Assembly: GCA_002699025.1 (NCBI GenBank)
Contig: PABA01000235.1
Span: forward strand, 1 to 64,000
Source: Sandaracinus sp.
GTDB lineage: Bacteria; Myxococcota_A; Polyangia; Polyangiales; Houyiibacteriaceae
Direction: 5' to 3'
Length of the DNA stretch: 64,000 bases
The notes under the pieces were generated by a model. The model saw only the letters and a list, made by a program, of their open reading frames with translations, was not told where the DNA came from and did not search any database. The position numbers and the translations under genes were made by a program. How positions within the stretch are numbered: the first letter of the stretch is position 1; each line of letters starts with the position of its first letter. Below are positions 8,629-28,338 of the stretch, one piece after another.

Positions 8629-8695
8629 GCCCCCCCTTTATCCCGGCCCGACCCCGCGATAGCGTGGCGACCGCGCCCGTCGAATTGCGCCGACC

Positions 8696-11781: not shown

Positions 11782-11856
11782 GCCCGGAGTGGCCGCGGGA
11801 GACGCGGGCGCGCTTCGACGAGGCGGCCCGCGGAGCGCCGCCAGGCCCGGTCGCCT

Positions 11857-12877: not shown

Positions 12878-14349
12878 CGCGTCAGCCCCTCCGGGAGGGC
12901 GGCGGGGAGCTCTTCGGCGGCGAAGGCGGCGAAGCGCAAGAGCGGCTCCGGGGAGAGGCCGATGAAGAGGGTCACGAGCGCCAGGACCCCGGCCGCCAGC
13001 CACGCCGGGCCGAGGCGCGTGTCGGTGGGCGGCGTCCAGTCGTCGTCCGGGTGCGGCTTCCAGAAGGCCCCCATCCAGATCTTCGCCATCGAATAGAGGG
13101 TCAGCGCGCCCACCAGGAGGGCGACGCCCGCGAGGGCCCAGCGCCCCTGCGCGAGGGTCTCCTGCACCACGAGGAGCTTGGCCCAGAAGCCGCTGAGCGG
13201 AGGCACGCCGACCAGGGAGAGGGCCGGCACGGCGAAGAGGGCCGCGAGCGCGGGGCGGGCGGTGAAGAGGCCGCCGGAGCGCCGGAGGTCGTAGCTGCCG
13301 GTGTGGCGGGCGATGAGCGCCACGATGAGGAAGAGGTTCGCCTTCACCACGATGTGGTGGACGACGTAGAAGATCGTGCCCAGCTGCCCCCGCTCCGACG
13401 CCAGCGCCACGCCGAGCAGCATGTACCCGATCTGGCTGACGATGTGGTAGGCGAGGATGCGCCGCATGTCCCAGTGGTAGGCCGCGCCGAGCACGCCGAA
13501 GAGCATGGTCGCGGCGGCGATCCAGGCGAGCGCCTCGAAGACGAAGGCCGAGGTCATGGGGAACACGCCGCCGAAGAGCCGCAGCAAGGCGTAGACGCCC
13601 ACCTTGGTCAGCAGCCCGGCGAAGAGCGCCAGCAGCGGCGCCGGCAGGGTGGGGTAGGAGGCGGGCAGCCAGGCGAAGAGGGGGAAGGCGCCCGCCTTGA
13701 CGAGGAACGCCAGGGCGACGACCACGACGAAGGGGGTGAGGGACCCGGCCTCGGCGTCGCGCGCCGCCGCCGCCAGGGCGCCGAAGCCGAGGTGGCCGGT
13801 CGCCGCGTAGAGGTACGCCACCCCGGCGAGGAGCAGCAGGGTGCCGATGGCGTTCAGGACGAAGTACTTGAGGGTCGCCTCGAGGTGCCGGACGCCCGCC
13901 TGGTAGACGAGCAGGCCGAGGGAGGAGACGAGCATCAGCTCGAACCACACGTAGACGTTGAAGAGGTCGCCCGTGAGGAAGGCGCCGGTGACCGCTGCGA
14001 GCATCGCGTGGGTCATCGGGAGCAGGGTGGGGTGGTCCGGCGCGGGGTCGGCGTCGGCGAGCTGGAAGACGAGCACCGCCGCGCCCATCAGCGCCGTGAT
14101 GACGACCATGCCGGCGCCGAGCGGATCGGCCACGAGCTCGATGCCGAAGGGCGCCGGCCAGCCGCCCATCGTGGAGCGCAGGGTGCCCGCGCGCCCGACG
14201 TGGACCAGCAGCGCGACGGCGCAGGCGAAGAAGGCGGCGACGCCGGCCAGGCTGAGCGCGCGCTGGGCCCGCGGCCGGGTGCCGAGGAGCGCCGTCCCCA
14301 GGCTCGTGGCGAGGGGGACGAGCACGCAGGCGACGAGGAGCGCGCTCAT
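12874..14349 (-). CDS. mrpD: Na+/H+ antiporter subunit MrpD (MnhD), NuoM/N-like
   Basis: The protein is a 491-residue polytopic membrane subunit homologous to the complex I antiporter-like subunits. The conserved glutamate sits in FNVYVWFELMLVSSLGLLVYQ and the key lysine in FAGLLTKVGVYALLRLFGG, both needed for ion translocation in this family. Other family motifs are FPLFAWLPASYPTLPAP and ILAYHIVSQIGYMLLGVAL. The last 40 residues form a soluble tail. Start ATG at 14349 overlaps the mrpC stop by 4 nt (ATGA). Confidence 0.93.
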   Translation of the reverse strand: MSALLVACVLVPLATSLGTALLGTRPRAQRALSLAGVAAFFACAVALLVHVGRAGTLRSTMGGWPAPFGIELVADPLGAGMVVITALMGAAVLVFQLADADPAPDHPTLLPMTHAMLAAVTGAFLTGDLFNVYVWFELMLVSSLGLLVYQAGVRHLEATLKYFVLNAIGTLLLLAGVAYLYAATGHLGFGALAAAARDAEAGSLTPFVVVVALAFLVKAGAFPLFAWLPASYPTLPAPLLALFAGLLTKVGVYALLRLFGGVFPMTSAFVFEALAWIAAATMLFGVLGAAYHWDMRRILAYHIVSQIGYMLLGVALASERGQLGTIFYVVHHIVVKANLFLIVALIARHTGSYDLRRSGGLFTARPALAALFAVPALSLVGVPPLSGFWAKLLVVQETLAQGRWALAGVALLVGALTLYSMAKIWMGAFWKPHPDDDWTPPTDTRLGPAWLAAGVLALVTLFIGLSPEPLLRFAAFAAEELPAALPEGLTR

Positions 14350-14774
14350 CGGGGCTCCCCCTCGTCTTCGGGCGGCAGCTCGAGCTCGGGGTCCCGCTCG
14401 AGCGCCGGCTCCCCGTCGTCCTCGGGCGGCGGCTCCGCGGCCCGCAGGTCGTGGGCGTCGCTGGTGCCGGTGCGCTGCTTGAGGGCGAGCACGACGATGA
14501 GCGAGAAGCAGGTGAGCGAGAAGCCGATCACGATCGCCGTGAGCACCAGCGCCTGAGGCAGGGGCGTCGCGGCGGCCGCGTCCAGGCGCTCGAGGCCCTC
14601 GGGGATCACCGGAGGCGAGGCCGGGCGGGCCCCGCCCGAGGCGAGCACGACCAGGTTGGCGGCGGCCGCCAGCACGGAGATGCCCACGACGCAGCGCAGG
14701 AGGTCCCGGCTCATGGCGAGGTAGGCGCCCGCGCTCACGGACGCACCGATGCCGATGGCGAGCAGCCAGATCAT
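14346..14774 (-). CDS. mrpC: Na+/H+ antiporter subunit MrpC (MnhC), NuoK-like
   Basis: This small NuoK-like subunit has three helices: IWLLAIGIGASVSAGAYLAM, LLRCVVGISVLAAAANLVVLA and ALVLTAIVIGFSLTCFSLIVVLAL, with the family segment PLPQALVLTAIVIGF. The C-terminal 35 residues form a very acidic tail rich in Pro, Glu and Asp, beyond the usual length of about 113. The ATG at 14774 overlaps the stop of the repeat micro-ORF upstream, and its Shine-Dalgarno AGGAGG lies inside that micro-ORF. Confidence 0.92.
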   Translation of the reverse strand: MIWLLAIGIGASVSAGAYLAMSRDLLRCVVGISVLAAAANLVVLASGGARPASPPVIPEGLERLDAAAATPLPQALVLTAIVIGFSLTCFSLIVVLALKQRTGTSDAHDLRAAEPPPEDDGEPALERDPELELPPEDEGEPR

Positions 14775-14911
14775 CGCCCGGTCCTCCTCACGGCGCTGCT
14801 GCTCACGGCGCTGCTGCTCACGGCGCTGCTGCTCACGGCGCTGCTGCTCACGGCGCTGCTGCTCACGGCGCTCCAGCTCACGGCGCTGCTGCTCACGGCG
14901 CTCCAGCTCAT
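14771..14911 (-). CDS. 46-residue SSSAV-repeat micro-ORF coupled to mrpAB and mrpC
   Basis: ATG at 14911 overlaps the mrpAB stop (ATGA) and the TGA at 14773-14771 overlaps the mrpC start (ATGA), so this ORF exactly bridges two subunits. It encodes Met followed by eight pentapeptides, S-[S/W]-SAV, and the tail RRTGR. Whether the peptide is made is unknown. It has no membrane segment and resembles nothing I recognise. Its function may be to carry ribosomes across the 133-nt gap and to deliver them to the AGGAGG before mrpC. It may also be a by-product of repeat expansion that selection has kept in frame. Confidence 0.5.
   Translation of the reverse strand: MSWSAVSSSAVSWSAVSSSAVSSSAVSSSAVSSSAVSSSAVRRTGR
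14783..14788 (-). promoter_or_regulatory. Shine-Dalgarno of mrpC, inside the micro-ORF
   Basis: On the minus strand AGGAGG precedes the mrpC ATG (14774) by 8 nt. It forms part of the Arg-Arg codons at the end of the repeat micro-ORF, directly after the last 15-bp unit. Confidence 0.8.
14787..14906. repeat. Eight 15-bp tandem repeats between mrpAB and mrpC
   Basis: The unit CTCACGGCGCTGCTG (plus strand) occurs eight times without spacers; units 6 and 8 end in CTCCAG instead of CTGCTG. On the coding strand each unit is GTGAGC[A/T]G[C/G]AGCGCC, so every unit holds a GTGA, the same overlap signal used at most gene junctions here. The length of 15 bp keeps the frame. Confidence 0.95.
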
Positions 14912-17757
14912 GACCGGCTCTCCGCGGGGCGGGTCGTGGGCACTGGGTCGATCGCCGCAGTGTCGATCGCCGCAGTGTCGGTCGTCGCCGGGTCGGTCTC
15001 CGCCCGCTCGGGCTCCAGCGGCCGCTCGGTCGCCGCCGGCCCGGTCGTCCGCTCGTCGAGGCCGATCATGCGCGCCGCCAGCCCTCCGAGCGCTCCCCAG
15101 ACCGCCCCGAAGACCCCGAGGTCGAAGGCGAGCACCGTCGAGAGCTTGTACTCGGTGAAGCCGAGGGGGACCGTCGTCCACAGGTGCGTCATGTAGGGCT
15201 CGCCGAGGAAGAGCGCCGGGAGGCCGCTGGCCAGCGAGAGCAGGGCGCTCCCGACGGCGAGGCGCTGGGGCCCGAAGGGCATGCGCTCGAGCGCCGCGTT
15301 CGCGCCCCGCGCCACGGCGAGGGCCGCCGTGGCGGCGACCGCGATCATGCCGCCGATGAACCCGCCGCCGGGCTCGTTGTGCCCGCGCAGCAGGACCACC
15401 GCCGCCGCGACGAGCATCACGGGGTAGATGCCGCGCACGGCCACGTCGAGCATGACGGCCCGGTCGCTCAGGCCGGTCTCTCCCGGCGGACGGGGCGCGC
15501 GTCGCTGCCGCCGCAAGAGGCGCAGCAGGGGCAGGGAGGCCAGGAAGGTCAGGGTGACCACGATGATCTCCCCGAGCGTGTCGACGGCCCGGTAGTCGAC
15601 GAGGATCACGTTGACCACGTTGCGTCCGTAGGCCTCGGGGACGCTCCGGGTGGCGAAGAACTCGGTGAGCGCGGGGTCCGGCGAGAAGCGGCTGCCGTAG
15701 AGGACGAGGCCGGCGACCGTGCTGCCGAGGGCGAGGGCGAGGGCGGCGCGGAGCAGCCGATGCCCCCGCGGGGAGGGCGCCGGCTCGCCGAGGGAGAGGC
15801 GCCGGACCCGGAGCAGGAGCGCGGCGAGCACCACCACGAAGGCGACCTCCACCGTGAGCTGGGTGAAGGCGACGTCGGGCGCGCCGAGCGCCAAGAAGAG
15901 GAGCGCGGACGAGAAGCCCACCAGGCCGCTCACCAGCAGCATGAGGAAGCGATCCCGGACCACGCAGACGCCGATGGAGGCCGCCACGAGGAAGACGAGC
16001 GCGCCGGCCGCGACCACCGAGGAGGCGTCGGCCTCGAAGGCGAAGCCCGGCCAGGCCGAGGTCGGGCCGCCCCGGGCGAGGAGCAGGCCGGCGGCCAGCA
16101 GCGCGAAGGCGAGGATCGTCCCGACGTAGACGGGGAGCCGTCCCCCCGAGAGGCTCCGGGTGGCGACCGACGCCACGCGACGGATCCCCTTCATCATGCC
16201 CGCGTACCAGCCCGAGGCCTGAAGGGCGCGCGGGCTGGGGAGACGCACCTGACGGCGGTGGATGCGGTCCCAGGCGAAGAAGATGCTCACGCCCAGCACG
16301 ACGGTGACGCCGAGCGCGACGTAGCTCGCGGTCTCGTCGGAGCGGAGCCCCTGGAGGGACGCCGCGGGGCCCATCGCGTGGGCCGCGTCGCTCAGGAGCG
16401 GGTCCACCAGCCCGGGGAAGAGCCCCAGGGCCATCCCGAGGCTGGCGAGGAGGAGCGGCGGGAACCAGGTGGTGGGGGGCCCCTCTTTCGCGTGGGCCGG
16501 CCGGGTCGTGTTCCGGCGCCAGAAGACCCGCACCGTGGCGACCCCCGCCGCCGCGATCGACGCGGCGCTCACGAAGACGCTCGCGTAGGTCACCCACTGG
16601 AAGATGTCGGTGTCCGACTTCGCGATCTTGATCACGTCCTTGGCGACGTAACCGAAGGAGAGCGGGACCCCCGCCATGGAGAGCCCGGCCATCCACGCCG
16701 CCGCGGCGGTGAATCGCATGCGGCCGCCGAGGCCGCCGATCTCGTCGAGGATGCGGGTGCCCGTCGCGTGGTCCACGTTGCCCACCGCGAAGAAGAGCGG
16801 CGCCTTGTAGAGGGCGTGGGCGAGGAGGAAGGCGGCGGTCGCGGTCGCGGCGCCGGGACCCGGGAGGCCGATCAGGAGCACCAGGGTCCCGAGGGCGGAG
16901 ACCGTGGACCAGGCGAGGATGCGCTTCAGGTCCCGCTCGCGGAAGACGAGCACCATGGGCCAGACGCTGCTGGCCGCGCCGACGATGACCAGGGTGAGTT
17001 GCCAGAGCGTCAGCTCCCCGAAGGCGGGGTGGAGCCGCGCCAGCAGGTAGACGCCCAGCTTCACCATGGTCGCCGAGTGGAGGTAGGTGCTGACGGGGGT
17101 CGGCGCCGCCATCGCGCCGGGGAGCCAGAAGTGGAAGGGCACCTGGGCGGACTTGGTGAAGGCCCCCGCGAAGATGCAGATCAGCGCCCCGGAGACCTCC
17201 GGCTCGTCGACCCAGCTGGGCGCGGTCGCGATCAGCTGCTGGATCGAGGAGGTGCCGGCGACGCGGCTGAGCAGGATCACCCCGGCGAGGAGGGCGAGCC
17301 CGCCGCCGGCGGTGATCATCAGGGCCTGCTGGGCCGACTGGCGGTTCTCCTCCTTGCCGAACTTGAAGCCGACGAGGAGGAAGGAGAGCACGCTGGTGAT
17401 CTCCCAAAACAGGAAGAGGACGAAGAGATCGTCGGTGGTGACGCAGCCGAGCATCGCCACCATGAACGCGAAGAGGAAACCGAAGAGCCGCGCGCGCCCG
17501 GGGTCCCCGGCGGAGTAGCCGGCCGCGTAGACGAAGACGAGCGCCCCGATGCCGGTGATCAGGAGGACCAGCAGCATCGAGAGGGCGTCGACGTGCACGC
17601 CGAAGGAGATGCCCAGCGAGGGGATCCAGTCGACGTGCGCGGTGAGCGGGAGGGCCCCGCTCACGTACGCCCAGAGGGCGAGGCCGAAGAGGGCCAGGGG
17701 CACGAGGGCGAGAAGCCCGAGTCGCGACGGCGCCGGGTCGGCTGGCTGCTCGCTCAT
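14908..17757 (-). CDS. mrpA: Na+/H+ antiporter subunits MrpA and MrpB fused (MnhAB)
   Basis: This 949-residue polytopic protein is the main subunit of the Mrp antiporter. Residues 1-500 are the NuoL-like part, with the essential Glu in LFLFWEITSVLSFLLVGFK and the Lys in LHSATMVKLGVYLLARL. A middle part carries the MrpA C-terminal motif DYRAVDTLGEIIVVTLTFLA. From about residue 764 the MnhB domain follows in the same chain (SDRAVMLDVAVRGIYP, HNEPGGGFIGGM). Fusion of A and B is known in several phyla. The C-terminal tail is soluble with a short DTAAI repeat. This is the first gene of the A/B-C-D-E-F-G operon; the start ATG has AGGGGAGC just upstream. Confidence 0.93.
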   Translation of the reverse strand: MSEQPADPAPSRLGLLALVPLALFGLALWAYVSGALPLTAHVDWIPSLGISFGVHVDALSMLLVLLITGIGALVFVYAAGYSAGDPGRARLFGFLFAFMVAMLGCVTTDDLFVLFLFWEITSVLSFLLVGFKFGKEENRQSAQQALMITAGGGLALLAGVILLSRVAGTSSIQQLIATAPSWVDEPEVSGALICIFAGAFTKSAQVPFHFWLPGAMAAPTPVSTYLHSATMVKLGVYLLARLHPAFGELTLWQLTLVIVGAASSVWPMVLVFRERDLKRILAWSTVSALGTLVLLIGLPGPGAATATAAFLLAHALYKAPLFFAVGNVDHATGTRILDEIGGLGGRMRFTAAAAWMAGLSMAGVPLSFGYVAKDVIKIAKSDTDIFQWVTYASVFVSAASIAAAGVATVRVFWRRNTTRPAHAKEGPPTTWFPPLLLASLGMALGLFPGLVDPLLSDAAHAMGPAASLQGLRSDETASYVALGVTVVLGVSIFFAWDRIHRRQVRLPSPRALQASGWYAGMMKGIRRVASVATRSLSGGRLPVYVGTILAFALLAAGLLLARGGPTSAWPGFAFEADASSVVAAGALVFLVAASIGVCVVRDRFLMLLVSGLVGFSSALLFLALGAPDVAFTQLTVEVAFVVVLAALLLRVRRLSLGEPAPSPRGHRLLRAALALALGSTVAGLVLYGSRFSPDPALTEFFATRSVPEAYGRNVVNVILVDYRAVDTLGEIIVVTLTFLASLPLLRLLRRQRRAPRPPGETGLSDRAVMLDVAVRGIYPVMLVAAAVVLLRGHNEPGGGFIGGMIAVAATAALAVARGANAALERMPFGPQRLAVGSALLSLASGLPALFLGEPYMTHLWTTVPLGFTEYKLSTVLAFDLGVFGAVWGALGGLAARMIGLDERTTGPAATERPLEPERAETDPATTDTAAIDTAAIDPVPTTRPAESRS

Positions 17758-17949
17758 GCTCCCCTACAGGTCTCCCGCCCGCGTCCATGTGGCGCAGCAG
17801 GGGGGGGTGTCAAGTAGGGACCGACCTCGTCCCGGCCCGGCTCCGGCGCGCGTCCGGGGAGGCCGTGGGGGAGCCGCGGCGGGCTGGCCTGCGCGGAGCG
17901 CGAGGGTGGCGCCCCGCCGAGCGGGCGCGTGAGCGCTGGGCTGGGGGAG

Positions 17950-18390
17950 TCAGAGGCAGGGCCAGGCCGATTCGTGGTCCATGAAGTCGAGGGCCACGAG
18001 CGTCCAACGACCGCGGCGCCGTTCGAAGACGTATTGGTGCAGCGTCGAAGAGCCGGGGATGACGGCGTGACGCTGGCGTGTGACGACCACCGCTTCGTCG
18101 CCATCGACGCCGGACGCCTCGATCGCTTGGCGTGACGGATCGTGCGACGGCGGGTTGCTGATGTGCATGGGCTGGGGGTCGCGCGGCGCGGCTTCGTGTT
18201 TCTCCAAGAGCTCGGCGTAGCGTCGGCGGGCCAGCTCCATGCGCTCGGCCGTCGGGCACTCGTAGGCCTGGACCTCCAGCGCGTGCAAGTCCGCGATGAG
18301 GGCTGTCACGCGCTCCAGCAACTCTTGGGGCGCAGCGGGCCAGCTGGCGACCTCGGCCAGTCGCCGTTCGCCGTAGTGCGTGGGTGGCAT
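17950..18390 (-). CDS. Small protein with possible NTF2-like fold
   Basis: The 146-residue protein has an N-terminal helical half (ERRLAEVASWPAAPQELLERV) and a C-terminal beta-sheet half with GDEAVVVTRQRHAVIPGSSTLHQYVFERRRGRWTLVALD, a pattern seen in NTF2-like domains, including immunity proteins of toxin systems. That likeness is by eye only. ATG at 18390 gives MPPTHYGERR; no Shine-Dalgarno is visible, and longer in-frame starts up to 18528 exist. No toxin gene is adjacent. Confidence 0.45.
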   Translation of the reverse strand: MPPTHYGERRLAEVASWPAAPQELLERVTALIADLHALEVQAYECPTAERMELARRRYAELLEKHEAAPRDPQPMHISNPPSHDPSRQAIEASGVDGDEAVVVTRQRHAVIPGSSTLHQYVFERRRGRWTLVALDFMDHESAWPCL

Positions 18391-18546
18391 GGGGGGGGAG
18401 TCTAGGCGATCCTCCCCGTCAGAGCGGGACGGGGCTCGGTCGTCCCGCACGTCGTCGACCCGAGTGATCGGGACTGGAGGTCGCCTCACCCAGAGGCCGA
18501 AGACGCAGGCGGGCGACCTCCGAGCCAACAGTCCATACTTGCCGCC

Positions 18547-19005
18547 GTGAGCACCCCCAGCCTCTCCGAGACGGCTTTCGCCGTCCGCTTTCAGGCCTTG
18601 CTCGACGAGGTCGCAGATGCGAGCAGCCGGTCGCGTGGCAAGTTTCGCCCGCTCGAGAGCTGGCTCTCCGAGGTGGCCGGCGTTCGCGCGAAGGCCACGT
18701 TCCTCAGCAGTCTACGCAAGCAGTACGCAGCTCGCGTGGGTCAGACGCTGTCCGCGCTGCCGGAACTGGTGGTGCTTCTCAGCCCGGAATCCTGGGCCAA
18801 GCGGCAATCCTCCGGCGAGCTTTATGTGGAGCGCCTCGAGGCTCTCGTTCGCTATGCGACGGGGCTTCAGGCCGTGGTGGCCTGCGTGGGACAGGAGCAC
18901 CGGTGGACGGTGGAGTACGTCGTCGGTCGTCAGGGGGTTCCGCTGCGCGCCTATCTCGGACGCGCTCTCGGGCCCCACGTAGACCGTCCTGTCACGCCTG
19001 ATTGA
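18547..19005 (+). CDS. Hypothetical protein beside the defence operon
   Basis: The 152-residue protein is not recognised. It begins with GTG at 18547 and is mostly helical, with a basic segment (ATFLSSLRKQYAARVGQ) and no signal peptide or membrane segment. Its end overlaps the 3' end of the convergent vsr gene by 14 nt, so transcription of the two may interfere. It could belong to the defence island or be the first host gene beyond it. Confidence 0.45.
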   Translation: MSTPSLSETAFAVRFQALLDEVADASSRSRGKFRPLESWLSEVAGVRAKATFLSSLRKQYAARVGQTLSALPELVVLLSPESWAKRQSSGELYVERLEALVRYATGLQAVVACVGQEHRWTVEYVVGRQGVPLRAYLGRALGPHVDRPVTPD

Positions 19006-19438
19006 GTTCGGAGTGCAGCCGTTCGCGCAGTGCTGCCAGGTCGCCCTTCGTCTCACACTCCCACACGACGACCACCGTGAACCCCAGCTTCCGCAGAGCG
19101 GCGGCCGACTCCGCGTCCCTCTCGACGTTGCGAGCGAACTTGGCCTCCCAGAAGGCTCTATTGCGTTTCGGGGTCGTCGTCGCTTTGCAGCCGTGCCGGT
19201 GCCAGTAGCAGCCGTGGACGAACACGGCCCAGCGGCGGCTCCGGTTCGCCACGTCCGGGCTACCCGGAAGGTCACGGTTGCGAACCCGGTACCTGTGTCC
19301 GAGCTCGTGGAGGAGCTTTCGGACGACGATCTCCGGTTTCGTGTCCTTCTGCCGGATGCCCCGCATCCGATCCGAAGTCTTCGAGTCGACCCGGATGACG
19401 TGACCGTCCCTGCGTTTCTGGACGAGCTGGTCGCTCAC
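18992..19438 (-). CDS. vsr: Very short patch repair endonuclease (Vsr)
   Basis: Vsr nicks DNA at T:G mismatches that arise when 5-methylcytosine deaminates, and so protects sites methylated by its partner methyltransferase. The 148-residue protein shows SDRMRGIRQKDTKPE, then DLPGSPDVAN with the metal-binding Asp, AVFVHGCYWHRHGC with catalytic His and zinc ligands, NRAFWEAKFARNVERD, and WECE near the end. The GTG start at 19438 overlaps the methyltransferase stop (GTGA), so the two are translationally coupled, as expected for partners. It is the last gene of the seven-gene operon. Confidence 0.92.
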   Translation of the reverse strand: MSDQLVQKRRDGHVIRVDSKTSDRMRGIRQKDTKPEIVVRKLLHELGHRYRVRNRDLPGSPDVANRSRRWAVFVHGCYWHRHGCKATTTPKRNRAFWEAKFARNVERDAESAAALRKLGFTVVVVWECETKGDLAALRERLHSELNQA

Positions 19439-20664
19439 GTCGCGGTTGATACCGAGTCGAGGTGTCGCCTCACTGCCGGGAGGAAGCCCTCCACGAAGCG
19501 GAGGGAGCTGTTCTCGGCTCGCCGCAGGAATCCGCGAGTGGCGCGCTCCGAGAGAGGCTTGGGCTCGTGCCGAAGGAACTCCGTGAGCGAAGGTCTCCGG
19601 AAGCGCTTCGGCCACTCCGACATCTCGGCCGTCCACCGTTCGCCGCCTTCGCTCCAAGCGTTCGTCGGCCAGGACTTGCCCTCCACCACGCGGCGTACTT
19701 CGTGTGTCTCGAAGTCCCTCGGCTTGGACAGGCACTTCCCGACCCACTTGGCGACCCGCACGCTGACCGCGTTGCCCACGAGCTTCCACCGGTGGCGCGG
19801 GGCAGCGACGCGCTCCGCGGCGATGGTCCAGTTCGCCTTGAAACCCTGGAGTCGTTCGGCGTCGCAGATGTGGGGAGTGACGATACGGCCGTCTGGCATC
19901 CAAATGGCTGGCGGCGAGGGAACGCCTACCGAGGAACCACCCTTCAGCGTGGGGACGGCATCGACCGCCCAGCCGAGGCCCCGTGTTCCCTCGGTCCAAT
20001 AGAAGCCATAGGCGGTGTCTGCCGTCTCGTTGGGGGTGGCTGGACCTGCGTCATCCGGAAAGAGAACCGTTCGTGGCTCCTCTTCCAGGCTCGCGACAAT
20101 CAGCACGCGTCGACGGCGCTGCGGCAGGCCGAACGCCCGCGAATCGACGACCCGGTATGCCCACTTGTATCCGAGCGACTCCAGCTTCGTCACGATGACG
20201 TCCAAAGCACGGCCCTTGGACAGCTGGAGCATGAAGGGCACGTTCTCTAGAAGCAGCCAAGGAACGCGCTGGTCCTCCACGAGCCGAAACACCTCGGAGA
20301 TGAGGCCGGACTTGGCGCCGGCCAGCCCGGCTGTCCGTCCGGCCTGGGAGAGATCCTGGCAGGGGAATCCTCCCGCGAGGAGCTCCGTGTCGGCGGGTAG
20401 GGCGCGCAGCTCTGCCACGTCTCCATGAAGAGGCAGGTCTGGGAAGCGGTGGGCCAACACGGCTCGGGCCGTCCCGTCGACCTCGCAGAGCCCGAGGGAA
20501 GGGTGTCCAGCGCGCGACAGTCCCAGCTCGATCCCTCCGACACCGGAGAAGAGGCCCATGGTGGGCAGTTGCCGCGGAGTCTGCTCCGCCGCGGCGTGTC
20601 CTCGCTCCACCCGAGACACCTCGAGGGTCAGCTGCTCCGCTTCCGCCGCAACACCCCGGTCCAT
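19435..20664 (-). CDS. DNA (cytosine-5) methyltransferase
   Basis: The 409-residue enzyme transfers a methyl group from S-adenosylmethionine to cytosine C5. Motif I is MGLFSGVGGIELGLSRAG (residues 36-53). Motif IV is GGFPCQDLSQAGR with catalytic Cys at about 102, motif VI is LLLENVP (Glu 140), motif VIII is FGLPQRRRRVLI, and motifs IX/X are ERLQGF and VGNAVSVRVAKWVG. The target recognition region lies between motifs VIII and IX, so the site cannot be read from sequence. Here it probably marks host DNA for the neighbouring ATPase/nuclease genes. A start at 20664 fits an AGGGTGG; Met36 is an alternative. Confidence 0.93.
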   Translation of the reverse strand: MDRGVAAEAEQLTLEVSRVERGHAAAEQTPRQLPTMGLFSGVGGIELGLSRAGHPSLGLCEVDGTARAVLAHRFPDLPLHGDVAELRALPADTELLAGGFPCQDLSQAGRTAGLAGAKSGLISEVFRLVEDQRVPWLLLENVPFMLQLSKGRALDVIVTKLESLGYKWAYRVVDSRAFGLPQRRRRVLIVASLEEEPRTVLFPDDAGPATPNETADTAYGFYWTEGTRGLGWAVDAVPTLKGGSSVGVPSPPAIWMPDGRIVTPHICDAERLQGFKANWTIAAERVAAPRHRWKLVGNAVSVRVAKWVGKCLSKPRDFETHEVRRVVEGKSWPTNAWSEGGERWTAEMSEWPKRFRRPSLTEFLRHEPKPLSERATRGFLRRAENSSLRFVEGFLPAVRRHLDSVSTAT

Positions 20665-20684
20665 CGGGCCACCCTACCATGTGC

Positions 20685-21482
20685 TCAGACGGCAGCACGC
20701 CGACGGGAGGCCCCTTCGAGCGCCTTCACCGACTCGGCGACGAGCTCCCGCGCAACCATCCTCATCTCCTCTGGGTCGAGTGCCTCGTAGTTGATCAGTG
20801 CGCCACGCCGCAGGAATCGCTTCATCACGTCTCGGAACAGCTCCATGCGGCTATCCACTTGGTCTCGAGCGGCCGCCCGCATGGTCTCGCGCGCGACCGC
20901 GACGGCGGTCTGTCGGGACATCACGGCTCTGGCTCGTTCGACGAACCCGACGATCTCGTCGTCCTTGAGTACGTGCACGAGTTCGTACGGCTCCCGATCG
21001 GCCCACCAGTCGTCTCGAAGCAACTCGCCGCGCCACCAGAGTCGGCCGAAGGTGTTGCGTAGGCCGCGGTCGCCTCCGAGGAAGCGATCCACTGGGCTCT
21101 TTTGGCCACCTCCCCAGCGCCATCGCACGACGTCGGGCAAGAGCACACAGCCGAAGAACGCCCAGACATCCTCCCGGGACGCTTCCGTGGGCGGGATTCC
21201 CGCCTCTCGGTGCAGGAACACGGCGCACTGTCCGTCAAAACTGCTGGCCTGTCGGGTCCGGATGGGTTCCGGAAAGGCCATCCGGTCGGCGATTCGCCGG
21301 ATGGAGTCGGCCAGCTCCTCGAGCTCCTCCGGCCGAACGGGGTTTCCTCCAGTAGGCCCGTAGGAGGCCAGCGGGTGACTCGTGGCCGCACGCTCTTGCG
21401 CCGCGAAGTTGGTTGCCTCGCAGAGCTCCGCGGCAAGCTCGCGAGCAACGACCCGCGGGAGGCGAGGAAAGAACCGAATCAT
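20685..21482 (-). CDS. DUF6339-like protein of the Z1/GHKL defence operon
   Basis: The 265-residue protein starts MIRFFPRLPRVVARELAAEL and continues TNFAAQERAATSHPLASYGPTGGNP, a pattern I recall from DUF6339 proteins found in Z1-type operons. Other features are a Trp-rich middle (VWAFFGCVLLPDVVRWRWGG, RLWWRGELLRDDWW) and a helical C-terminal half. No catalytic motif is evident. The ATG at 21482 overlaps the preceding stop (ATGA). Its role is unknown; a structural or adaptor part of the defence complex is a guess. Confidence 0.65.
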   Translation of the reverse strand: MIRFFPRLPRVVARELAAELCEATNFAAQERAATSHPLASYGPTGGNPVRPEELEELADSIRRIADRMAFPEPIRTRQASSFDGQCAVFLHREAGIPPTEASREDVWAFFGCVLLPDVVRWRWGGGQKSPVDRFLGGDRGLRNTFGRLWWRGELLRDDWWADREPYELVHVLKDDEIVGFVERARAVMSRQTAVAVARETMRAAARDQVDSRMELFRDVMKRFLRRGALINYEALDPEEMRMVARELVAESVKALEGASRRRAAV

Positions 21483-22393
21483 TCGGCGCCCCCGGCTTCG
21501 GTACCCGCTTCCACGTAGCCGAGACTGGCCTGCAGCTGGGCTTCGAACCGACCAGGGTTGGTAGCGAGTAGGTCGCGAACTGCGCTCGGAGACCGATGGG
21601 AGAAGACGCTGCCGAGGAGTCGGCGCACGATCGCGCCGACCGTGTCTCCCCCGAAGGCGCCGGGGTCCTCCATGAACTCTCTCGACTGGAGAGCACCGAC
21701 CATCATCTGTCGGGCAACGTCCAGCCGGATCCGCTGCCACATGCGCCGGACGTGCTTCTCGGCGCCTTCGGTCGCCTTCTTCAGCTCGGTGTGGCCCGAA
21801 TTGAGGTAGAGCCGCATTCCTCCGAGAACGGAGCTATCTGGCTGATGCGGATCCCAGTCGAGGTACCAGGCGGCCTTTTGGGGAAAGCCTCGCGTCGCGC
21901 CGAAGTCGACCCATTGAACGGGGAACCGCGCCGACGAGTCTTCGAGGTCGACGCGGACGGCGTCTCGCCAGAGCGTCGCCCCCTTCGCTTCGGCCGCCTC
22001 TGAACGAGCGTCCTTGGCTTCCATGAGAACGATGGCCGTTTCGAGATCGACCCACGAGGCCACGTGTGAGCCGTCGATCTCGATCCGAAGCTCCAGGGCC
22101 TCCTGCTCTCCCATCCGAAGAACCACGTCGCGTTTGCACGTCCGAGTCCGAGTCCGAGTGGCGTCGCAACGCCAGCACGCGATGACTCGTATCCGTGAGC
22201 CGGCCCCGAGAGCGGTCTCTTCGATCACACGGTCGTGGTCCAGTCGAAGACTGCGGCAGAGTCCAAGGCTCACGGACGGATCCCATTGCGTAGCCACGTC
22301 CTTCAGGGCATCTGGGTCCTCGGTGCCCAGCAGTCGCCACGGGTCTAGGTCGGCGAGTTCGAGGGTCGGATAGGGGGGAGCGACGACTTTCAC
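21479..22393 (-). CDS. Unrecognised protein of the Z1/GHKL defence operon
   Basis: The 304-residue protein is not a family I recognise. It begins MKVVAPPYPTLELADLDPW. In its N-terminal half is CWRCDATRTRTRTCKRDVVLRMG, a possible zinc knuckle, and next to it a strand-rich stretch with EIDGSHVASWVDLETAIVLMEAKDA and later VQWVDFGATRGF. The segment LETAIVLMEAK has the look of the E-x-K strand of a PD-(D/E)XK fold, which would make it a second nuclease-like protein, but this is speculative. Start overlaps the GHKL gene stop (ATGA). Confidence 0.6.
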   Translation of the reverse strand: MKVVAPPYPTLELADLDPWRLLGTEDPDALKDVATQWDPSVSLGLCRSLRLDHDRVIEETALGAGSRIRVIACWRCDATRTRTRTCKRDVVLRMGEQEALELRIEIDGSHVASWVDLETAIVLMEAKDARSEAAEAKGATLWRDAVRVDLEDSSARFPVQWVDFGATRGFPQKAAWYLDWDPHQPDSSVLGGMRLYLNSGHTELKKATEGAEKHVRRMWQRIRLDVARQMMVGALQSREFMEDPGAFGGDTVGAIVRRLLGSVFSHRSPSAVRDLLATNPGRFEAQLQASLGYVEAGTEAGGAE

Positions 22394-24285
22394 GGCGTCG
22401 ACTCTCCTTCCGCGACGACATCGACGGCCACCAGTGCTGAGCGCGGCATGGCCACGCCGAGCTCCCAGGTTCCTTCCTCGACTGCGTCTACCGAGTCGGT
22501 ATCGTCGAATCGCTCGCCTGACGGGGAGCCCCAGAAAGCTACCCGTGGCTTTCGAGCCCCTCTCGGCGGTGTGGATTCCACTCCTCCCCCGAGGAGCGAG
22601 ATCGACAGCTTCGCCGTGAGCCGGGATGCGCGGCTTCCTTTGGCGTGGCGCAGCTCCACCTCGAACAGTCGCGTGGGCAGGCCCTCGCCTTGTGAGAATC
22701 GTCGGGTGTCGTGGACTCGCACCTTGGGCTTCGGGCCGCGTCGTCGTCCGCCCCCCTTGCCTCCTCCAGCCGAGGAGGCTTCCTGCTCTGGTGAGCTGCC
22801 GGCCCCGATGAGCACCTCCCCCAGATGCTCCGCCAGTTCGGCGAGCGGGCCGCCGGCGACCGCGTCCGGTTGCTCACGGTGCGGCTCGATGAACTCCGCG
22901 ACCTTCTCGTCGATCCGTTTGAACGTGGTCCTCACGAACGTCTTGTGACGTCGGTCGGCGATGATTTCGGGCGACCAGCTATCGTGCGTCGGAGGCTCTG
23001 CCCCGGCGAACACGCGATCCATGTCCGGGTCTGCGAGAAAGACTCCCGCGTATCCGATCGTGTCGGAGGGCAACGCAGGGAACTCCTTGTACTCGACGAC
23101 CAGCTCGGGACGACGAAGCAGCGCGACGTGGTGTGCTCGGGTGTGAATGTCAGGGACCGTTCCTGCTTCTGCGAAGTCGGAGAGACCGGTTCGCTGAGTT
23201 GGTGTCCGAACCGCCGCGAACCGGCCCACCCTCCTCTTCGGGCGGAGACAGAACAGCTCTTTGGATGCGTCCCCCGTCTTCTCTGCCTCGCGTACTTGCT
23301 GCAGTGCGCGAACAAAGCCGTCGAAGGGAGGTGTGTCCGCGGGCCCTGGCATCGCGACGGTTTTGCCTTCCCAGCTCAGCTCGAATCGCATGCTGGCCTG
23401 CTTCTCCCCAGGCCACGGCACCATCTTGGGCCACAGATTCAAGAGCAGTTGCCACGACATGTACTCGAACGCGCGCTCGGGCTCCTCCTCCCAGGGATCG
23501 AAGTGGGGTGCCAGGATTCCGATCGTAGTCCCGGTCGAGTTGCGCTCGAACGATGGAAACCCGAGTAGGTCGGCCAGCTGGTCAGCCTGCTCGCCAACGA
23601 GTGGATCGACGATCCCGGACTTGGGATCCCGCCGACCCCACCAATGGCGCCCCGTGAGGTTTCGGCCCTCGTGGGAGTAGTGATTGGTGAGTCCCGAGCC
23701 CATGAACCGCGACTGCAGGCCGTCATCGGTCCGGCATCGCGTATGCACGAGAAGGGTATGGACCTCGCTGCTCAAGTAGAGGGCCGCCTTGCCGTACCCG
23801 AAGGTGCCGCCTCCGCGCGCCTTGTCAGGGGGCGTTCCAATGTTCCGGAAGAAGTCGACGAAGTCTCGAGGCTGGTCCGTACGAAGGCTATCAGCGCGGG
23901 TGGGCCCTCCGAGGCCGGATGTGCCGCGGTCGTAGACCGCCAGCATGACGATGCCCTCGCCGTCACGAACCTTGGCGGCACGCTCCCGTAGCGTGTCTCC
24001 CAGGGCCGCTGCCTCCGTCACGTCGTAGGCATGGCGAGGTGGCCGTTGCGCGAAGACTGTCTTCTGGAGCGCACCGAACTGCTTCGCGTTCAGCGTCCAC
24101 CCTTGAAGCCCGAACGTGACCGATGTGGCGCACTCACTCTTGGCATCCCAAGAGTTCTGCGCTGCTTCTCGCACGAGTAGTGAAAGCCGGTCGAGCCGCG
24201 GTCGACCCAACTGGTTTCGCATACCCTCCGATGCGATGTTGCCGGTGGCGACGTAGGGCTCAGCCTGCATGTCGAGGGGCTTCAC
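22390..24285 (-). CDS. GHKL ATPase of MutL/MORC type in a restriction-like operon
   Basis: The 631-residue protein carries the Bergerat ATP-binding fold at its N-terminus. The N box is LVREAAQNSWDAK (Glu40, Asn44, Asp47), the G1 box is VYDRGTSGLGG (Asp119), the glycine-rich lid is ARGGGTFGYGKAALYLSS (about 157-173), and STGTTIGIL follows. The middle resembles the transducer domain of MutL, Hsp90 and MORC proteins. A charged Ser/Gly/Lys-rich linker (SSAGGGKGGGRRRGPKPK) precedes a C-terminal beta-rich domain. ATP-driven clamping on DNA is the likely role, inferred from the family. Both ends overlap neighbouring genes by 4 nt. Confidence 0.85.
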   Translation of the reverse strand: MKPLDMQAEPYVATGNIASEGMRNQLGRPRLDRLSLLVREAAQNSWDAKSECATSVTFGLQGWTLNAKQFGALQKTVFAQRPPRHAYDVTEAAALGDTLRERAAKVRDGEGIVMLAVYDRGTSGLGGPTRADSLRTDQPRDFVDFFRNIGTPPDKARGGGTFGYGKAALYLSSEVHTLLVHTRCRTDDGLQSRFMGSGLTNHYSHEGRNLTGRHWWGRRDPKSGIVDPLVGEQADQLADLLGFPSFERNSTGTTIGILAPHFDPWEEEPERAFEYMSWQLLLNLWPKMVPWPGEKQASMRFELSWEGKTVAMPGPADTPPFDGFVRALQQVREAEKTGDASKELFCLRPKRRVGRFAAVRTPTQRTGLSDFAEAGTVPDIHTRAHHVALLRRPELVVEYKEFPALPSDTIGYAGVFLADPDMDRVFAGAEPPTHDSWSPEIIADRRHKTFVRTTFKRIDEKVAEFIEPHREQPDAVAGGPLAELAEHLGEVLIGAGSSPEQEASSAGGGKGGGRRRGPKPKVRVHDTRRFSQGEGLPTRLFEVELRHAKGSRASRLTAKLSISLLGGGVESTPPRGARKPRVAFWGSPSGERFDDTDSVDAVEEGTWELGVAMPRSALVAVDVVAEGESTP

Positions 24286-25313
24286 GTTGCCACCAGCTCC
24301 TCTCTCAGCTTCTCGACTTCGGCAGCTGACAGTTCGCAGTGCGCCGCCGCGCCGAGATCGATCGAGTAGCTGAGCTGGGAGATGGCCGAGTGGAGAGGCG
24401 CGGCAAGCTCGGCTGGAGTCAGCCGAGGGAAGTCTTCTCTGACTTCAAAGACGCTCTCATCGCGTAGGCAGAAGCGGGCCTGCCGAGCCGCGGACTCGCT
24501 TGGGTCAACCCCCTGCTTTGCCAGCTTGTCGAGGAGAAGCTCCTGATCCGCACCCATCGAAGCGAGCGATCCCAGTAGCTCCCCAATGTTCTCTCCGTTA
24601 CTCGCGCGGTCCAGAGTGACGACCGCCAGAGCGAGGCGTCCGCCGGGGGCTGCGACGAGCTGTCGGAGACCGTTGATTCGGACTCGTTGACCGCGTTGGC
24701 TTCGCGCCTTCACTTCGATCGCGATTCCGCCCGACTCCAAGTCATGCACCTCTCCGTCTGGTCCTCGCCAGCACCTGGCCGACATCGGGTTGATACGGAT
24801 GAGCTCGCGCAGCTGTAGGAGCTCGGCGTACACACCAAGTAGCCGTTGCTCACTGACCGGACGGGACGCCCGTGCCAGGAGTTCGCGCCAGTCCGCCAGT
24901 GTCTCGGAAGCGCGAGTCGACACGTCGCTCTTACCGTCGAGTCGCGTTAGCAGGTCTTCAGCGACGAGGAGGAACAGCCGTCGGAGCCGCGGAATGCGGC
25001 ATACCAGATCCACGAAATGCCGCCGCTTCCCGCCGTCCATCAGCTCTCGCGCTTCGACTTGTATTCCCTTGCTTCCCTTGTCCGGCTGGATCTCCTCGTG
25101 CGCCTTCGCTGGGACGAGCACATGCCATGTGCCGTCGATTCCACAGCCAGCGAACCAAGGCCCATCGACGTCCCCAATGAAGAGCTCCCGGACCTCGAGA
25201 CCTTGGTCCTCGATGGGCTTCTCGAGTACATCGAAAGAGCGCTGCAGCGACTTGCGAACCTCAGCCTTCGTCGGCTTCGTCATCCTCGAACTCGTCTTCT
25301 TCGTCGAACTCAC
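24282..25313 (-). CDS. PD-(D/E)XK motif protein (DUF4420-like nuclease)
   Basis: The 343-residue protein has a nuclease-like core: LLGVYAELLQLRELI (Glu164), then CWRGPDGEVHDLESGGIAIEVKAR with the Asp191...Glu200-x-Lys202 signature of PD-(D/E)XK enzymes, then RVRINGLRQLV. This matches the DUF4420 family that accompanies Z1 proteins. It is the best candidate for the DNA-cutting component. The GTG at 25313 is used here and overlaps the Z1 gene by 53 nt. An ATG at 25283 (MTKPTKAEV) is an alternative with a 23-nt overlap. Its stop overlaps the GHKL start (ATGA). Confidence 0.82.
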   Translation of the reverse strand: MSSTKKTSSRMTKPTKAEVRKSLQRSFDVLEKPIEDQGLEVRELFIGDVDGPWFAGCGIDGTWHVLVPAKAHEEIQPDKGSKGIQVEARELMDGGKRRHFVDLVCRIPRLRRLFLLVAEDLLTRLDGKSDVSTRASETLADWRELLARASRPVSEQRLLGVYAELLQLRELIRINPMSARCWRGPDGEVHDLESGGIAIEVKARSQRGQRVRINGLRQLVAAPGGRLALAVVTLDRASNGENIGELLGSLASMGADQELLLDKLAKQGVDPSESAARQARFCLRDESVFEVREDFPRLTPAELAAPLHSAISQLSYSIDLGAAAHCELSAAEVEKLREELVAT

Positions 25314-27846
25314 CAGTGGGCTCGGGGAGCAATACGCGTACGTACTTCTTCCCGATGGGTCGTTCCGACTTGGGAAACTCGAACGCTACCGCCAGGACGT
25401 CCTCGGTCGCATCGAGCGGAATACGCGGGTCCGCTGCTTTAGTCGCCTGCTTTTCACTAGGCTTCGAGTTCTTTGAAATGGGATATAGGACGAGAAGAGG
25501 GGGGTCTTCAGGTCCGCGTTTCTTGCGTCCATCAGGCAGGCCTGCTCGGAAGTCCATCTGTGTGGAAACCGTGCCTACGGTTGCATGTGTGTCCTCGGAT
25601 CGCGTGGGTTTCCGACGAGAACGGTTCAGGAGGTTGACCTCGAGCCCGCCGATCTCTCGAACGCCTGCCACCTGGTCTTCGTGACGACGGCCAGACAGTA
25701 CGACCGTCCAAGAACTCAGGCCACCGTACTCGATCTCCGATTCGATGTAGGAAGTCAGTGCGTCGCTGGTAAGGTCGACCAGCCGAGGGTGGAAACGATA
25801 GCGGCGGACGAAGTCGATGACCTTTTCGGCGGGGACACCCGTCCATACATATCGTCCTCCCAAGCGCTCGTTGTGAGGGCCGAGGGATTCGATGAGGGAA
25901 TCTGCGGCGTCAATGTTGTTGCTCAAAAGGTCGCGGTCCACCCTCTCGTATATATGTGTTTGTCTTGTCGTTCCACTGTAGGAGATGTCGCATTCCTCGG
26001 CGTGGTGCATCTTCAGGGAGTTGGTGACAGCGAGGCTCGGGTGAACACGGATTCGCACTCCGAACTGCTCTGGGGTCATGTCCTGTGTTTCATACTTCCG
26101 TATGTCCTCACGGATCTCCGCCTCGACAGTCGCGAGTTGGAAGAACGCCTCCTTGAGCTCGTTGGACATCCAGATGCGAGGCAGATCCTCGTACCCAAAT
26201 CGATACCCAAACCATCGGCCCATCTGAAGTAATGTGTCGTACGCGGAAGCGGAGCGAACGAAGTAGCTAACCGTGAGACCCTCGAGAGTGAGGCCGCGAG
26301 AAAGTGTGTTGCCTCCGATGGCTATCTGTGTTCTTGGAGTGTCGTCGTATACAAGGCGATCGAGGCTAGATCCGTGCTCTGCGATGACGGATGCTTCATC
26401 GAGAACGCTTCGGAGAAACGGGTGTAGCTCTTCGAATGATGTTTTCTTCCGACTGAATACCTCAGCTGGAACGCGGCGGCATTCCCTCTCCCATAGGTCT
26501 TCTAGTTCGCTGATGACCTTCTTGTTCCGTGAGGCGACACGGCTGCGGAGAACAAGCCAAGCATCCTCGACCTCGCGCTGCAGTTTGTCGTGCGAGTCTA
26601 CGTACAATGTTGTGTGGATAAGCATGGACTCGTGCGAGCGAGGTGCACGAGCACGCCTCGCCGCACAGGTCAGAAGGAAGTAGCGAATGGCTTCGTCCAA
26701 ACTGGGTGGAACTGAGGCCTCGAAGGATGCTCGGTCAGAGGTGCCTTTGGGGCGAACGAGAGAAATGTCCTCATCGGGAACTTCTCGGATCATGTCCAGT
26801 TCGGCGTTCCGCACGTCCTCGACGTCTGACTCATCCATCGGTAGCTTCTCGCGACCGAAGAGGCGCTCTGCGCCGAAGTAGCCGGGAGGGCGGGGCAGTT
26901 CGACGATGAAGTCTTTGGGGTAGAGGTCGTCGCCCTTTGGGTTGACGAGGACATTCGCGAACGGTGTCGCCGTGTAGCCGATGTATGCGGCTTTGGGTAG
27001 CGTCCCGATGATGCCGAGAAGAAGCTTGTTGATCGCTGTCCGCTCGTTCGGGTTCTTGTGAGCGTTCAGTCCAGCCTGGTCCGCTTCGTCGTCTATGATG
27101 AGAGTGGGGCAGTCGCTGAGGATCCGATCGCTGCCTTGGTCCAACCACTTTCTCAGTCGTCTCAATACGTGAGCGTTCTTCTTTGCGACGCAGAGGATCC
27201 GCATCCGGCTGTGGTCGGAAAGGAAGGCGTCTGTATTTCCGGTTGTAGAGGCTCGAAAGTCTTCGCTCTCTGCGGTAAGCGATACCCATAGAGTTCGGTT
27301 GAGATCCTGTAGCTCCGCCGATAGGCGTCGTTGAGTCTGTTGTCGAAGAGTGTTGTGGACTCCTGCGAGGACGATGAATAGTCGGTATCCAACGTCCGCC
27401 GCTTTGGCGATTAGTGCTGTGTAGTTCGCCGTCTTTCCGCTTTGGACGTGGCCGACGACCAGTCCTCGGGTGTCGATCTCTCCCATGCCAGCAGGCTGCA
27501 TATGCGAGAGGATCTTCGTCGTGGACCGGTTAATCGAATCGACCGTCGCAGCAGGCCAGCCCTTGTCCTCTCGAAGATACTTCTCGAGAGCGGGCCAGCA
27601 CTTGTCGCCGGGCTGTGGACCGGCGTACCAGGCGCGGAGCCCTCGGTGGATGACGGGTGGGTCGTCCATTCTTCGAATACGACCCGCCCGCTCCTCGAAC
27701 ACCCGGAAGGCAGCCTTGGCGTCGGCCTGAGGAATTCCCATCTCTACCAAGTGGTCGTAGGCATCACTTGGTGTCTGCCCCCCGCGGACGGTCAGCGCGA
27801 GCATTTTGACGAAAGGTTCGAGCGTCTTCTGGTTCGTATTGGCCAC
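25261..27846 (-). CDS. Z1 domain superfamily II helicase-like ATPase
   Basis: The 861-residue protein has an N-terminal helical region, then Walker A VVGHVQSGKTANY (residues 131-142) and Walker B TLIIDDEADQAGLN (about 248-261). Motif III-like AYIGYTATPFANVLVNP follows, and a classic Z1 segment with QIAIGGNTLSRGLTLEGL and YDTLLQMGRWFGYRFGY corresponds to helicase motifs V and VI. Z1 proteins probably move on or remodel DNA using ATP. It is the first gene of the operon. The GTG at 27846 follows GGGGAG at 5 nt. Its DNA is clearly richer in A/T than its neighbours, with codons such as ATA and AGA, and suggests recent transfer. Confidence 0.9.
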   Translation of the reverse strand: MANTNQKTLEPFVKMLALTVRGGQTPSDAYDHLVEMGIPQADAKAAFRVFEERAGRIRRMDDPPVIHRGLRAWYAGPQPGDKCWPALEKYLREDKGWPAATVDSINRSTTKILSHMQPAGMGEIDTRGLVVGHVQSGKTANYTALIAKAADVGYRLFIVLAGVHNTLRQQTQRRLSAELQDLNRTLWVSLTAESEDFRASTTGNTDAFLSDHSRMRILCVAKKNAHVLRRLRKWLDQGSDRILSDCPTLIIDDEADQAGLNAHKNPNERTAINKLLLGIIGTLPKAAYIGYTATPFANVLVNPKGDDLYPKDFIVELPRPPGYFGAERLFGREKLPMDESDVEDVRNAELDMIREVPDEDISLVRPKGTSDRASFEASVPPSLDEAIRYFLLTCAARRARAPRSHESMLIHTTLYVDSHDKLQREVEDAWLVLRSRVASRNKKVISELEDLWERECRRVPAEVFSRKKTSFEELHPFLRSVLDEASVIAEHGSSLDRLVYDDTPRTQIAIGGNTLSRGLTLEGLTVSYFVRSASAYDTLLQMGRWFGYRFGYEDLPRIWMSNELKEAFFQLATVEAEIREDIRKYETQDMTPEQFGVRIRVHPSLAVTNSLKMHHAEECDISYSGTTRQTHIYERVDRDLLSNNIDAADSLIESLGPHNERLGGRYVWTGVPAEKVIDFVRRYRFHPRLVDLTSDALTSYIESEIEYGGLSSWTVVLSGRRHEDQVAGVREIGGLEVNLLNRSRRKPTRSEDTHATVGTVSTQMDFRAGLPDGRKKRGPEDPPLLVLYPISKNSKPSEKQATKAADPRIPLDATEDVLAVAFEFPKSERPIGKKYVRVLLPEPTGEFDEEDEFEDDEADEG

Positions 27847-27969
27847 CCCAACTCCCCATGCCGATTAGTCGCCAGATGGTGAAGGCTCGGATGGTACCGA
27901 GACGACGCGTATTGATCGAGTCTGACTGTTTTCTTTCCCGTGTTTGGGGGAGGCGAGCGGCGTGCGGGG
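27847..27969 (-). promoter_or_regulatory. Likely promoter region of the defence operon
   Basis: This 123-nt gap upstream of the Z1 gene is A/T-rich for the window, with a minus-strand GGGAAAGAAAACAGTC followed by CGATCAATACGCGTCG. It is the only gap before the seven coupled genes and should hold their promoter. No exact -35/-10 pair can be fixed. Confidence 0.35.
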
Positions 27970-28338
27970 TCATCCCGCCCGAGGCAGCAGGGCGTCTGCC
28001 AGGTCCCAGCACTTCTCCAGGAGCGGCTTCGCGTGCGGGGTGCGGAGGCGGTCGCTCGCGTTGTGGAGCTCGACCGTGCGGCCTGCGAGCTCGATGCGGA
28101 GGCGCTCTTCGCCCATGGCGTAGAAGTCGCCCTGGACGAGCTCTTGCTCCTCTTGCCGGACGGCGGCGGCGAGGGGGCGGAGGACGTCGAGGTCGGCCTC
28201 GGAGAGGGGGGCCTTCGCGTGGCGGGTCTGGCCGCCTACGCGGCGCTCGATCTCGAGCGTGCCGGCGCCGAGGTCGATGAGGACGCGGTGGGTGACCCAG
28301 CTGCTCGCGACAATCGCCTCGATGCGCTCCTCGCTCAC
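27970..28338 (-). CDS. Hypothetical protein, 122 residues
   Basis: The protein is not recognised. It begins MSEERIEAIVASSWVTHRVLIDLG, has a beta-rich N-terminal part, a central helix (ADLDVLRPLAAAVRQEEQEL) and a second small sheet with RLRIELAGRTVELHN. There is no signal or membrane segment. It ends just upstream of the defence operon and begins 10 nt after the stop of the hydroxylase-like gene, so it likely belongs to that host transcript. Confidence 0.5.
   Translation of the reverse strand: MSEERIEAIVASSWVTHRVLIDLGAGTLEIERRVGGQTRHAKAPLSEADLDVLRPLAAAVRQEEQELVQGDFYAMGEERLRIELAGRTVELHNASDRLRTPHAKPLLEKCWDLADALLPRAG

Follow-up and report, generated by a model that had tools for sequence, protein, structure and literature searches.

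A stretch of DNA from Sandaracinus sp. carries a seven-gene operon that, judged from its sequence, is a conserved and probably functional defence operon, and that is likely to encode a multi-subunit, ATP-dependent and modular system of the restriction-modification type that discriminates DNA by its 5-methylcytosine (5mC). The window, by which we mean the whole 64-kb stretch analysed, belongs to contig PABA01000235.1 of assembly GCA_002699025.1 (draft, 9.24 Mb, 238 contigs), from a marine myxobacterium-type organism. In 5' to 3' order, the operon (18992-27846, minus strand) comprises genes for a Z1 motor protein, a DUF4420 nuclease, a GHKL ATPase, an unnamed 304-residue protein that we call UNK, a DUF6339 protein, a C5-cytosine DNA methyltransferase (C5 methyltransferase) and a Vsr endonuclease. 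A first-pass annotation had placed seven minus-strand genes here and proposed a restriction-modification-like defence role for them; all the open reading frames (ORFs) are present where they were placed, and that role is still the best reading.

Related loci were found through relatives of the GHKL protein in 12 of 377 genomes of the Myxococcota phylum (this one included), on five plasmids and in a one-genome-per-species collection, from which the best 80 of 248 stretches with a GHKL relative were fetched; because the loci were chosen by this protein, the counts show its companions and not overall prevalence. Among the resulting 89 distinct loci, the GHKL gene is present in 89, DUF6339 in 88, UNK in 85, Z1 in 83 and the nuclease in 80, and all five of these core genes stand in the same order, mostly with 4-nucleotide (nt) overlaps, in 78, so that the operon is more than a chance arrangement. 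The loci span at least nine bacterial phyla, the record titles naming Myxococcota, Chloroflexota, alpha-, beta- and gammaproteobacteria, Actinomycetota, Acidobacteriota, Planctomycetota, Spirochaetota, Nitrospinota and one cyanobacterial plasmid. Pairwise identities of the core proteins correlate at 0.87-0.95, which shows that the five core genes descend together. A linked C5 methyltransferase and Vsr accompany 58 of the 78 full cassettes; the seven genes do co-occur in other genomes, and the earlier proposal that they form one unit is upheld.

Searches of Pfam, PADLOC, NCBIfam and PHROGs with the window proteins, together with the GHKL motifs, bore out the families first assigned to the motor, the nuclease, the GHKL ATPase, the methyltransferase, Vsr and the DUF6339 protein, and the motifs reported as intact are kept in the first five. 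The Z1 protein matches PF10593 (Pfam, E 6.8e-69) and MzaC (PADLOC, E 2.5e-94), and its Walker A (G-VQSGKT), DDEAD, TATP and QMGRWFG motifs are conserved, mostly at 90-99%, across 83 homologues. The nuclease matches DUF4420 (PF14390; Pfam, E 7.4e-43) and MzaD (PADLOC, E 1.5e-9), and its residues E164, D191, E200, K202 and Q218 are identical in 80 of 80 homologues. The methyltransferase matches PF00145 (E 4.6e-46), with PCQ, ENV and RRR motifs intact, and Vsr matches TIGR00632 (121.6 bits against a cut-off of 97.85), with LPGSPD and HGCYWHRH motifs.

The GHKL protein has no Pfam match and matches PDC-M33A of PADLOC (E 1e-17). Ten of its residues (E40, N44, D47, D119, G124, G127, G160, G163, G165 and T253) are invariant in 86 of 86 homologues, as is an EPPxHxW motif, represented here by EPPTH with the ExxxH signature at E430..H434. 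Since ExxxH is described as a paraMORC2 feature in the text of Iyer, Abhiman and Aravind (2008; PMC2292703), its invariance within EPPxHxW leads us to assign the protein to the paraMORC2 family. Compared by sequence with the PDB, neither the GHKL protein (profile search, E up to 1) nor UNK nor the DUF6339 protein gave a credible match, and two scans of viral contigs found no GHKL relative. In 13 loci (L047, L050, L060 and L066 among them) a second GHKL-type gene adjoins a C5 methyltransferase of about 700 residues near the cassette, perhaps a paraMORC1 or another defence unit.

UNK, which sits between the GHKL and DUF6339 genes, is the component that had been described as lacking a family, and it indeed has no match in any of the four libraries; the proposed PADLOC check of the proteins yielded MzaC, MzaD, PDC-M33A and PDC-M33C matches and left UNK without one. 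An AlphaFold2 model of UNK (mean predicted local distance difference test score, pLDDT, 89.5) has an N-terminal Ig/Fn3-like beta-sandwich and a C-terminal helical part. A fold search, which barely probed the C-terminal half, returned only common Ig-like sandwiches over residues 9-151 (best Z 9.0, root-mean-square deviation 2.9, 110 aligned); the modelled Ig-like fold is of a common type and would not by itself indicate a function. The DUF6339 protein matches PF19866 (Pfam, E 4.2e-14) and PDC-M33C (PADLOC, E 3.7e-6), is all-helical in its AlphaFold2 model (mean pLDDT 93.7) and has several nearly invariant arginines in the alignment of its homologues. Compared with solved structures, this model reached a best VIA Z of 6.8, the level of unrelated helical models, and no Foldseek E below 0.1.

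The GHKL, UNK and DUF6339 genes also occur without the rest. Three-gene cassettes lacking Z1 were found at L038:8905-12645, L032 and L033, one of them carried by a haloarchaeal plasmid, near a C5 methyltransferase, and because the middle gene of these loci, that on the haloarchaeal plasmid included, is homologous to UNK (hhalign 94.7%, E 6e-8), the three constitute a module in their own right, one that is partly catalogued as PDC-M33 of PADLOC. The operon proteins match models A (GHKL) and C (DUF6339) of this system, and the Z1-less loci do so more strongly, whereas in the operon Z1, the nuclease, the methyltransferase and Vsr come in addition; the PDC-M33B profile matched nothing in the operon, nor did it match in the control.

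The link between this core and the methylation genes bears on a second explanation, namely that the operon consists of two independent units, a Z1/nuclease/GHKL defence cassette and an unrelated, solitary methyltransferase-Vsr pair for epigenetic marking. The position and orientation of the methyltransferase and Vsr do vary between loci, and in 13 of the 89 no methyltransferase was found in the fetched neighbourhood. Ten of 11 such loci tested have one elsewhere in the genome or record (one of the ten below the family cut-off), weak evidence because most genomes have one. However, a C5 methyltransferase does lie in the fetched neighbourhood of the other 76 loci, within 2.5 kb in 71 and at a median distance of 223 nt from the cassette. 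By sequence, these enzymes are divided among 16 classes (linkage at 40% identity), which suggests that the need for 5mC marking is more conserved than the enzyme itself; Vsr is present in 59-60 of the 89 loci, depending on the score cut. The nearest relative, Enhygromyxa salina, has all seven genes and retains orthologues of the methyltransferase (53% identical) and Vsr (64%) despite a rearrangement that puts them upstream of Z1, not downstream as here. In four Streptomyces loci (L058, L059, L067 and L074) a much lengthened DUF6339 gene encodes a fusion to a C-terminal C5 methyltransferase of one and the same class (L058:12814-14670; PF00145, E 3.1e-37, and also matched in PADLOC), which ties DUF6339 to the methyltransferase side. 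Finally, Z1, the C5 methyltransferase and Vsr have one detected gene each in the assembly, all within the operon, although these counts come from a 238-contig draft, in which absence elsewhere is not proof. We therefore consider it decidedly unlikely that the methyltransferase and Vsr are strangers to the cassette. Other C-terminal extensions of DUF6339, of no recognized family, occur in L040 (779 residues), L028 (559) and L026, L030 and L099 (about 424).

The type of operon has been predicted computationally before. In its composition, it fits the 'Type I' Z1 defence system postulated by Miller, Stern and Burstein (2022), a computational prediction whose function was given as not known and which is described in the text of that paper as widely distributed and as comprising Z1, a PD-(D/E)XK protein, a C5 methyltransferase and three further genes, in strong association with DNA-repair endonucleases (PMC9523054). 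Common to both is the presence of Z1, the PD-(D/E)XK protein (printed there as DUF4220, here DUF4420) and the C5 methyltransferase in one operon; the three additional genes would be those met here as GHKL, UNK and DUF6339, and the repair endonuclease would be Vsr, a match that rests on gene number and partners, the three being unnamed in the main text. Earlier still, Iyer et al. (2008) described MORC/paraMORC neighbourhoods of restriction-modification type with a distinct superfamily II helicase bearing the motif DThhQXuRhFG (DTLLQMGRWFG here), a nuclease of the restriction endonuclease (RE) fold, a paraMORC ATPase (with ExxxH, as here), a C5 methylase and Vsr, and thus the association of all these partners; the text consulted (PMC2292703) contains no description of UNK and DUF6339, core components in the present operon. 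New here are the paraMORC2 assignment, the recognition of UNK as a recurrent family, the fusion of DUF6339 to a methyltransferase and the alternative nucleases associated with the cassette.

The first-pass annotation had also pointed to similar gene sets that go by the name Mza in defence catalogues. Homologues of MzaC and MzaD are indeed adjacent, as in MZA (mzaABCDE), but they are distant, Z1 scoring 405 bits against an MzaC equivalog cut-off of 1500 and the nuclease 60 against 420 for MzaD (NCBIfam). Neither the MzaB profile nor AIPR (PF10592) matched in the genome, controls having matched in both searches, and the MzaA profile, which stands for a component described as a sigma factor (PMC9523054), found nothing in the operon and matched only on other contigs. 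Moreover, the text of the same paper sets Mza-like AIPR/MORC variants apart as a type of their own (Type II). The label was therefore rejected, and membership of Mza seems to us highly improbable.

Parallels of an experimental kind come from CglI and NgoAVII, in which, as here, a Z1-containing ATPase has a nuclease and a 5mC methyltransferase as its partners. Their Z1 N-proteins are double-stranded DNA-dependent ATPases required for restriction, beside the 5mC methyltransferase; ATP is hydrolysed on DNA with unmethylated sites, and experiments have shown that the ATPase is required for cleavage (PMC4267653). Unlike the present operon, these systems use a PLD-B3 nuclease and have no GHKL, UNK or DUF6339. 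None of the seven operon proteins has a Pfam match to a PLD or B3 domain.

MutL is an ATP-gated clamp that activates nucleases, and the analogy with CglI/NgoAVII, together with that of the MutL clamp, underlies our current working hypothesis, in which the components would form a complex that confers defence, presumably against phages, one subunit reading the target sequence. The C5 methyltransferase would mark a short sequence on host DNA and so protect the host's own sites. On unmarked DNA, the Z1 motor and a dimer of the paraMORC2 GHKL protein, acting as an ATP-gated clamp like MutL, would assemble, joined into a surveillance complex by the UNK adaptor and DUF6339, with DUF6339 as its connection to the methyltransferase or that enzyme's site. 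ATP hydrolysis would then license the DUF4420 PD-(D/E)XK nuclease to cut the unmarked, invading DNA. Vsr, for its part, would repair the T:G mismatches that arise from deaminated methylated cytosines and thereby limit C-to-T mutation.

The nuclease slot in this scheme may be exchangeable, the missing enzyme being replaced by a nuclease of the HNH type or by the PLD nuclease of DISARM. Four Z1 cassettes lack the DUF4420 nuclease gene, and in three of these another nuclease-bearing unit directly follows DUF6339. In L044 (977-17571), an apparent hybrid operon encodes a UvrD-like helicase, Z1, GHKL, UNK, DUF6339 and the DISARM proteins DrmA, DrmB and DrmC (PLD), drmA and the DUF6339 stop overlapping by ATGA; upstream, on the opposite strand, lies a gene for a DrmMII-like methyltransferase. 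In the other two (L037:9326-17802 and L115:7131-15845), DUF6339 is followed by PDC-M01A and PDC-M01B, a pair consisting of a PtuA-like AAA ATPase and a weak HNH match, of which no homologues were found in any other locus of the set; for the fourth cassette, L056, no replacement nuclease was identified. The locus on the Rhizobium plasmid, L037, is a dense defence island (6525-25407), with Gabija GajA and GajB upstream and, downstream, genes for HNH, Vsr and Dcm as part of an EcoRII-type set.

A restriction-modification-type system is thus supported by the order and common descent of the core, the nearby methyltransferases, the sole Z1, C5 methyltransferase and Vsr genes and the invariant catalytic residues, as well as by the CglI/NgoAVII data, the DUF6339 fusion, the alternative nucleases after DUF6339 and signs of lateral transfer. 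Several observations weigh against it. None of the five core proteins has an identified target-recognition domain, and the fold searches with UNK and DUF6339 gave no functional clue. None of the core genes departs from the expected divergence in relation to methyltransferase class, and local windows of two triples of loci of differing class revealed no region swapping with that class; the lack of a class-linked core segment would be in keeping with the methyltransferase itself recognizing the target, this being a small test in which classes may share a target. The nuclease-exchange pattern comes from a small sample of three loci in defence-rich neighbourhoods, where adjacency may be due to chance. 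In 29 of the 89 loci no Vsr was detected in the stretch examined, some of these being on short contigs. Lastly, a search of the open-access literature, with most subscription journals outside its scope, found no experimental study of any member. One apparent swap segment, at the N-terminus of the L079 nuclease, was rejected as a frameshift near the 5' end of the gene (L079:8200-8470), which in this metagenome-assembled genome represents either an assembly error or a pseudogene.

The missing target-recognition domain would also suit a different mode of action, modification-blocked abortive infection or nicking, in which the complex would not cut at sites but, through the GHKL clamp, would sense intermediates in the replication or repair of unmethylated phage DNA, with DNA destruction or cell death to follow and methylation serving only to keep the system quiet. 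The presence of a MutL/MORC-like clamp and of Vsr suggests that DNA structure, and not sequence alone, is read; AIPR, which is found in the Mza-like Type II relatives, bears the annotation of an abortive-infection protein in the text of PMC9523054; and in Caulobacter, loss of a C5 methyltransferase where a Vsr-like protein is present leads to a DNA damage response (PMC12907096). On the other hand, a cell-killing domain is absent from the seven genes, the nuclease has a conventional PD-(D/E)XK fold and the presence of a 5mC methyltransferase is, as in restriction systems, nearly universal, and we regard such a mechanism as unlikely. A variant of the restriction-type reading, which we put forward tentatively and as rather doubtful, is that the Z1-paraMORC2-UNK-DUF6339 core serves as a platform that borrows the recognition of its partner C5 methyltransferase via DUF6339 and drives interchangeable nucleases (PD-(D/E)XK, PDC-M01 HNH or DISARM DrmABC).

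The features of the operon are collected below.

Genes and upstream region of the Sandaracinus sp. operon, with the evidence for each (window positions)
Feature	Position	Strand	Basis
Z1-domain SF2 ATPase/translocase, 861 residues, first gene	25261..27846	-	PF10593, MzaC, motifs
DUF4420 PD-(D/E)XK nuclease	24282..25313; likely ATG start 25283 (333 residues)	-	PF14390, MzaD, catalytic residues
GHKL (MutL/MORC-like) ATPase, 631 residues, paraMORC2 signature	22390..24285	-	GHKL motifs, ExxxH, PDC-M33A
UNK, 304 residues	21479..22393	-	Gene position in homologous loci, structure model
DUF6339 protein, 265 residues, all-helical, conserved arginines	20685..21482	-	PF19866, PDC-M33C, model
C5-cytosine DNA methyltransferase, 409 residues	19435..20664	-	PF00145, motifs
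Vsr endonuclease, 148 residues, GTG start	18992..19438	-	TIGR00632, motifs
Intergenic stretch upstream of Z1, likely promoter region	27847..27971	-	Sequence

Overlaps of exactly 4 nt are found at four of the six junctions (nuclease/GHKL, GHKL/UNK, UNK/DUF6339 and methyltransferase/Vsr). The Z1 and nuclease genes overlap by 23-53 nt, according to the nuclease start chosen, probably the ATG at 25283, and 20 nt separate DUF6339 from the methyltransferase. A longer DUF6339 ORF, to 21740, only gains an upstream in-frame GTG, and a 335-residue ORF with a TTG start at Vsr enters the methyltransferase gene out of frame. A promoter scan of 27847-27971 found no sigma-70 consensus upstream of Z1, and neither Rfam at gathering thresholds nor a tRNA scan found anything across the window. 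The GC content of the operon is 58-67%, compared with about 70-79% in the flanks. The low GC content and the position of the sole detected Z1, C5 methyltransferase and Vsr genes within the operon fit its acquisition as a unit, and the low GC content and the copies on plasmids fit lateral transfer. GC at third codon positions (GC3) is 0.96 in a flanking Ser/Thr protein kinase gene (PF00069; 28601-30778, plus strand) and 0.66-0.84 in the operon genes.

With 248 GHKL relatives in a one-genome-per-species collection, this type of operon is widespread, and it joins a Z1 motor to a MutL/MORC-like clamp. The text of PMC2292703 proposes that the eukaryotic MORC chromatin ATPases descend from prokaryotic MORC relatives, and the cassette offers a compact, genetically tractable case of such relatives acting with nucleases and methylation. 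The fusion and alternative-nuclease loci provide testable hypotheses as to which parts recognize DNA and which cut it. If the platform proposed above is real, its modularity would connect classical restriction, DISARM and MORC-type ATPases at the level of mechanism.

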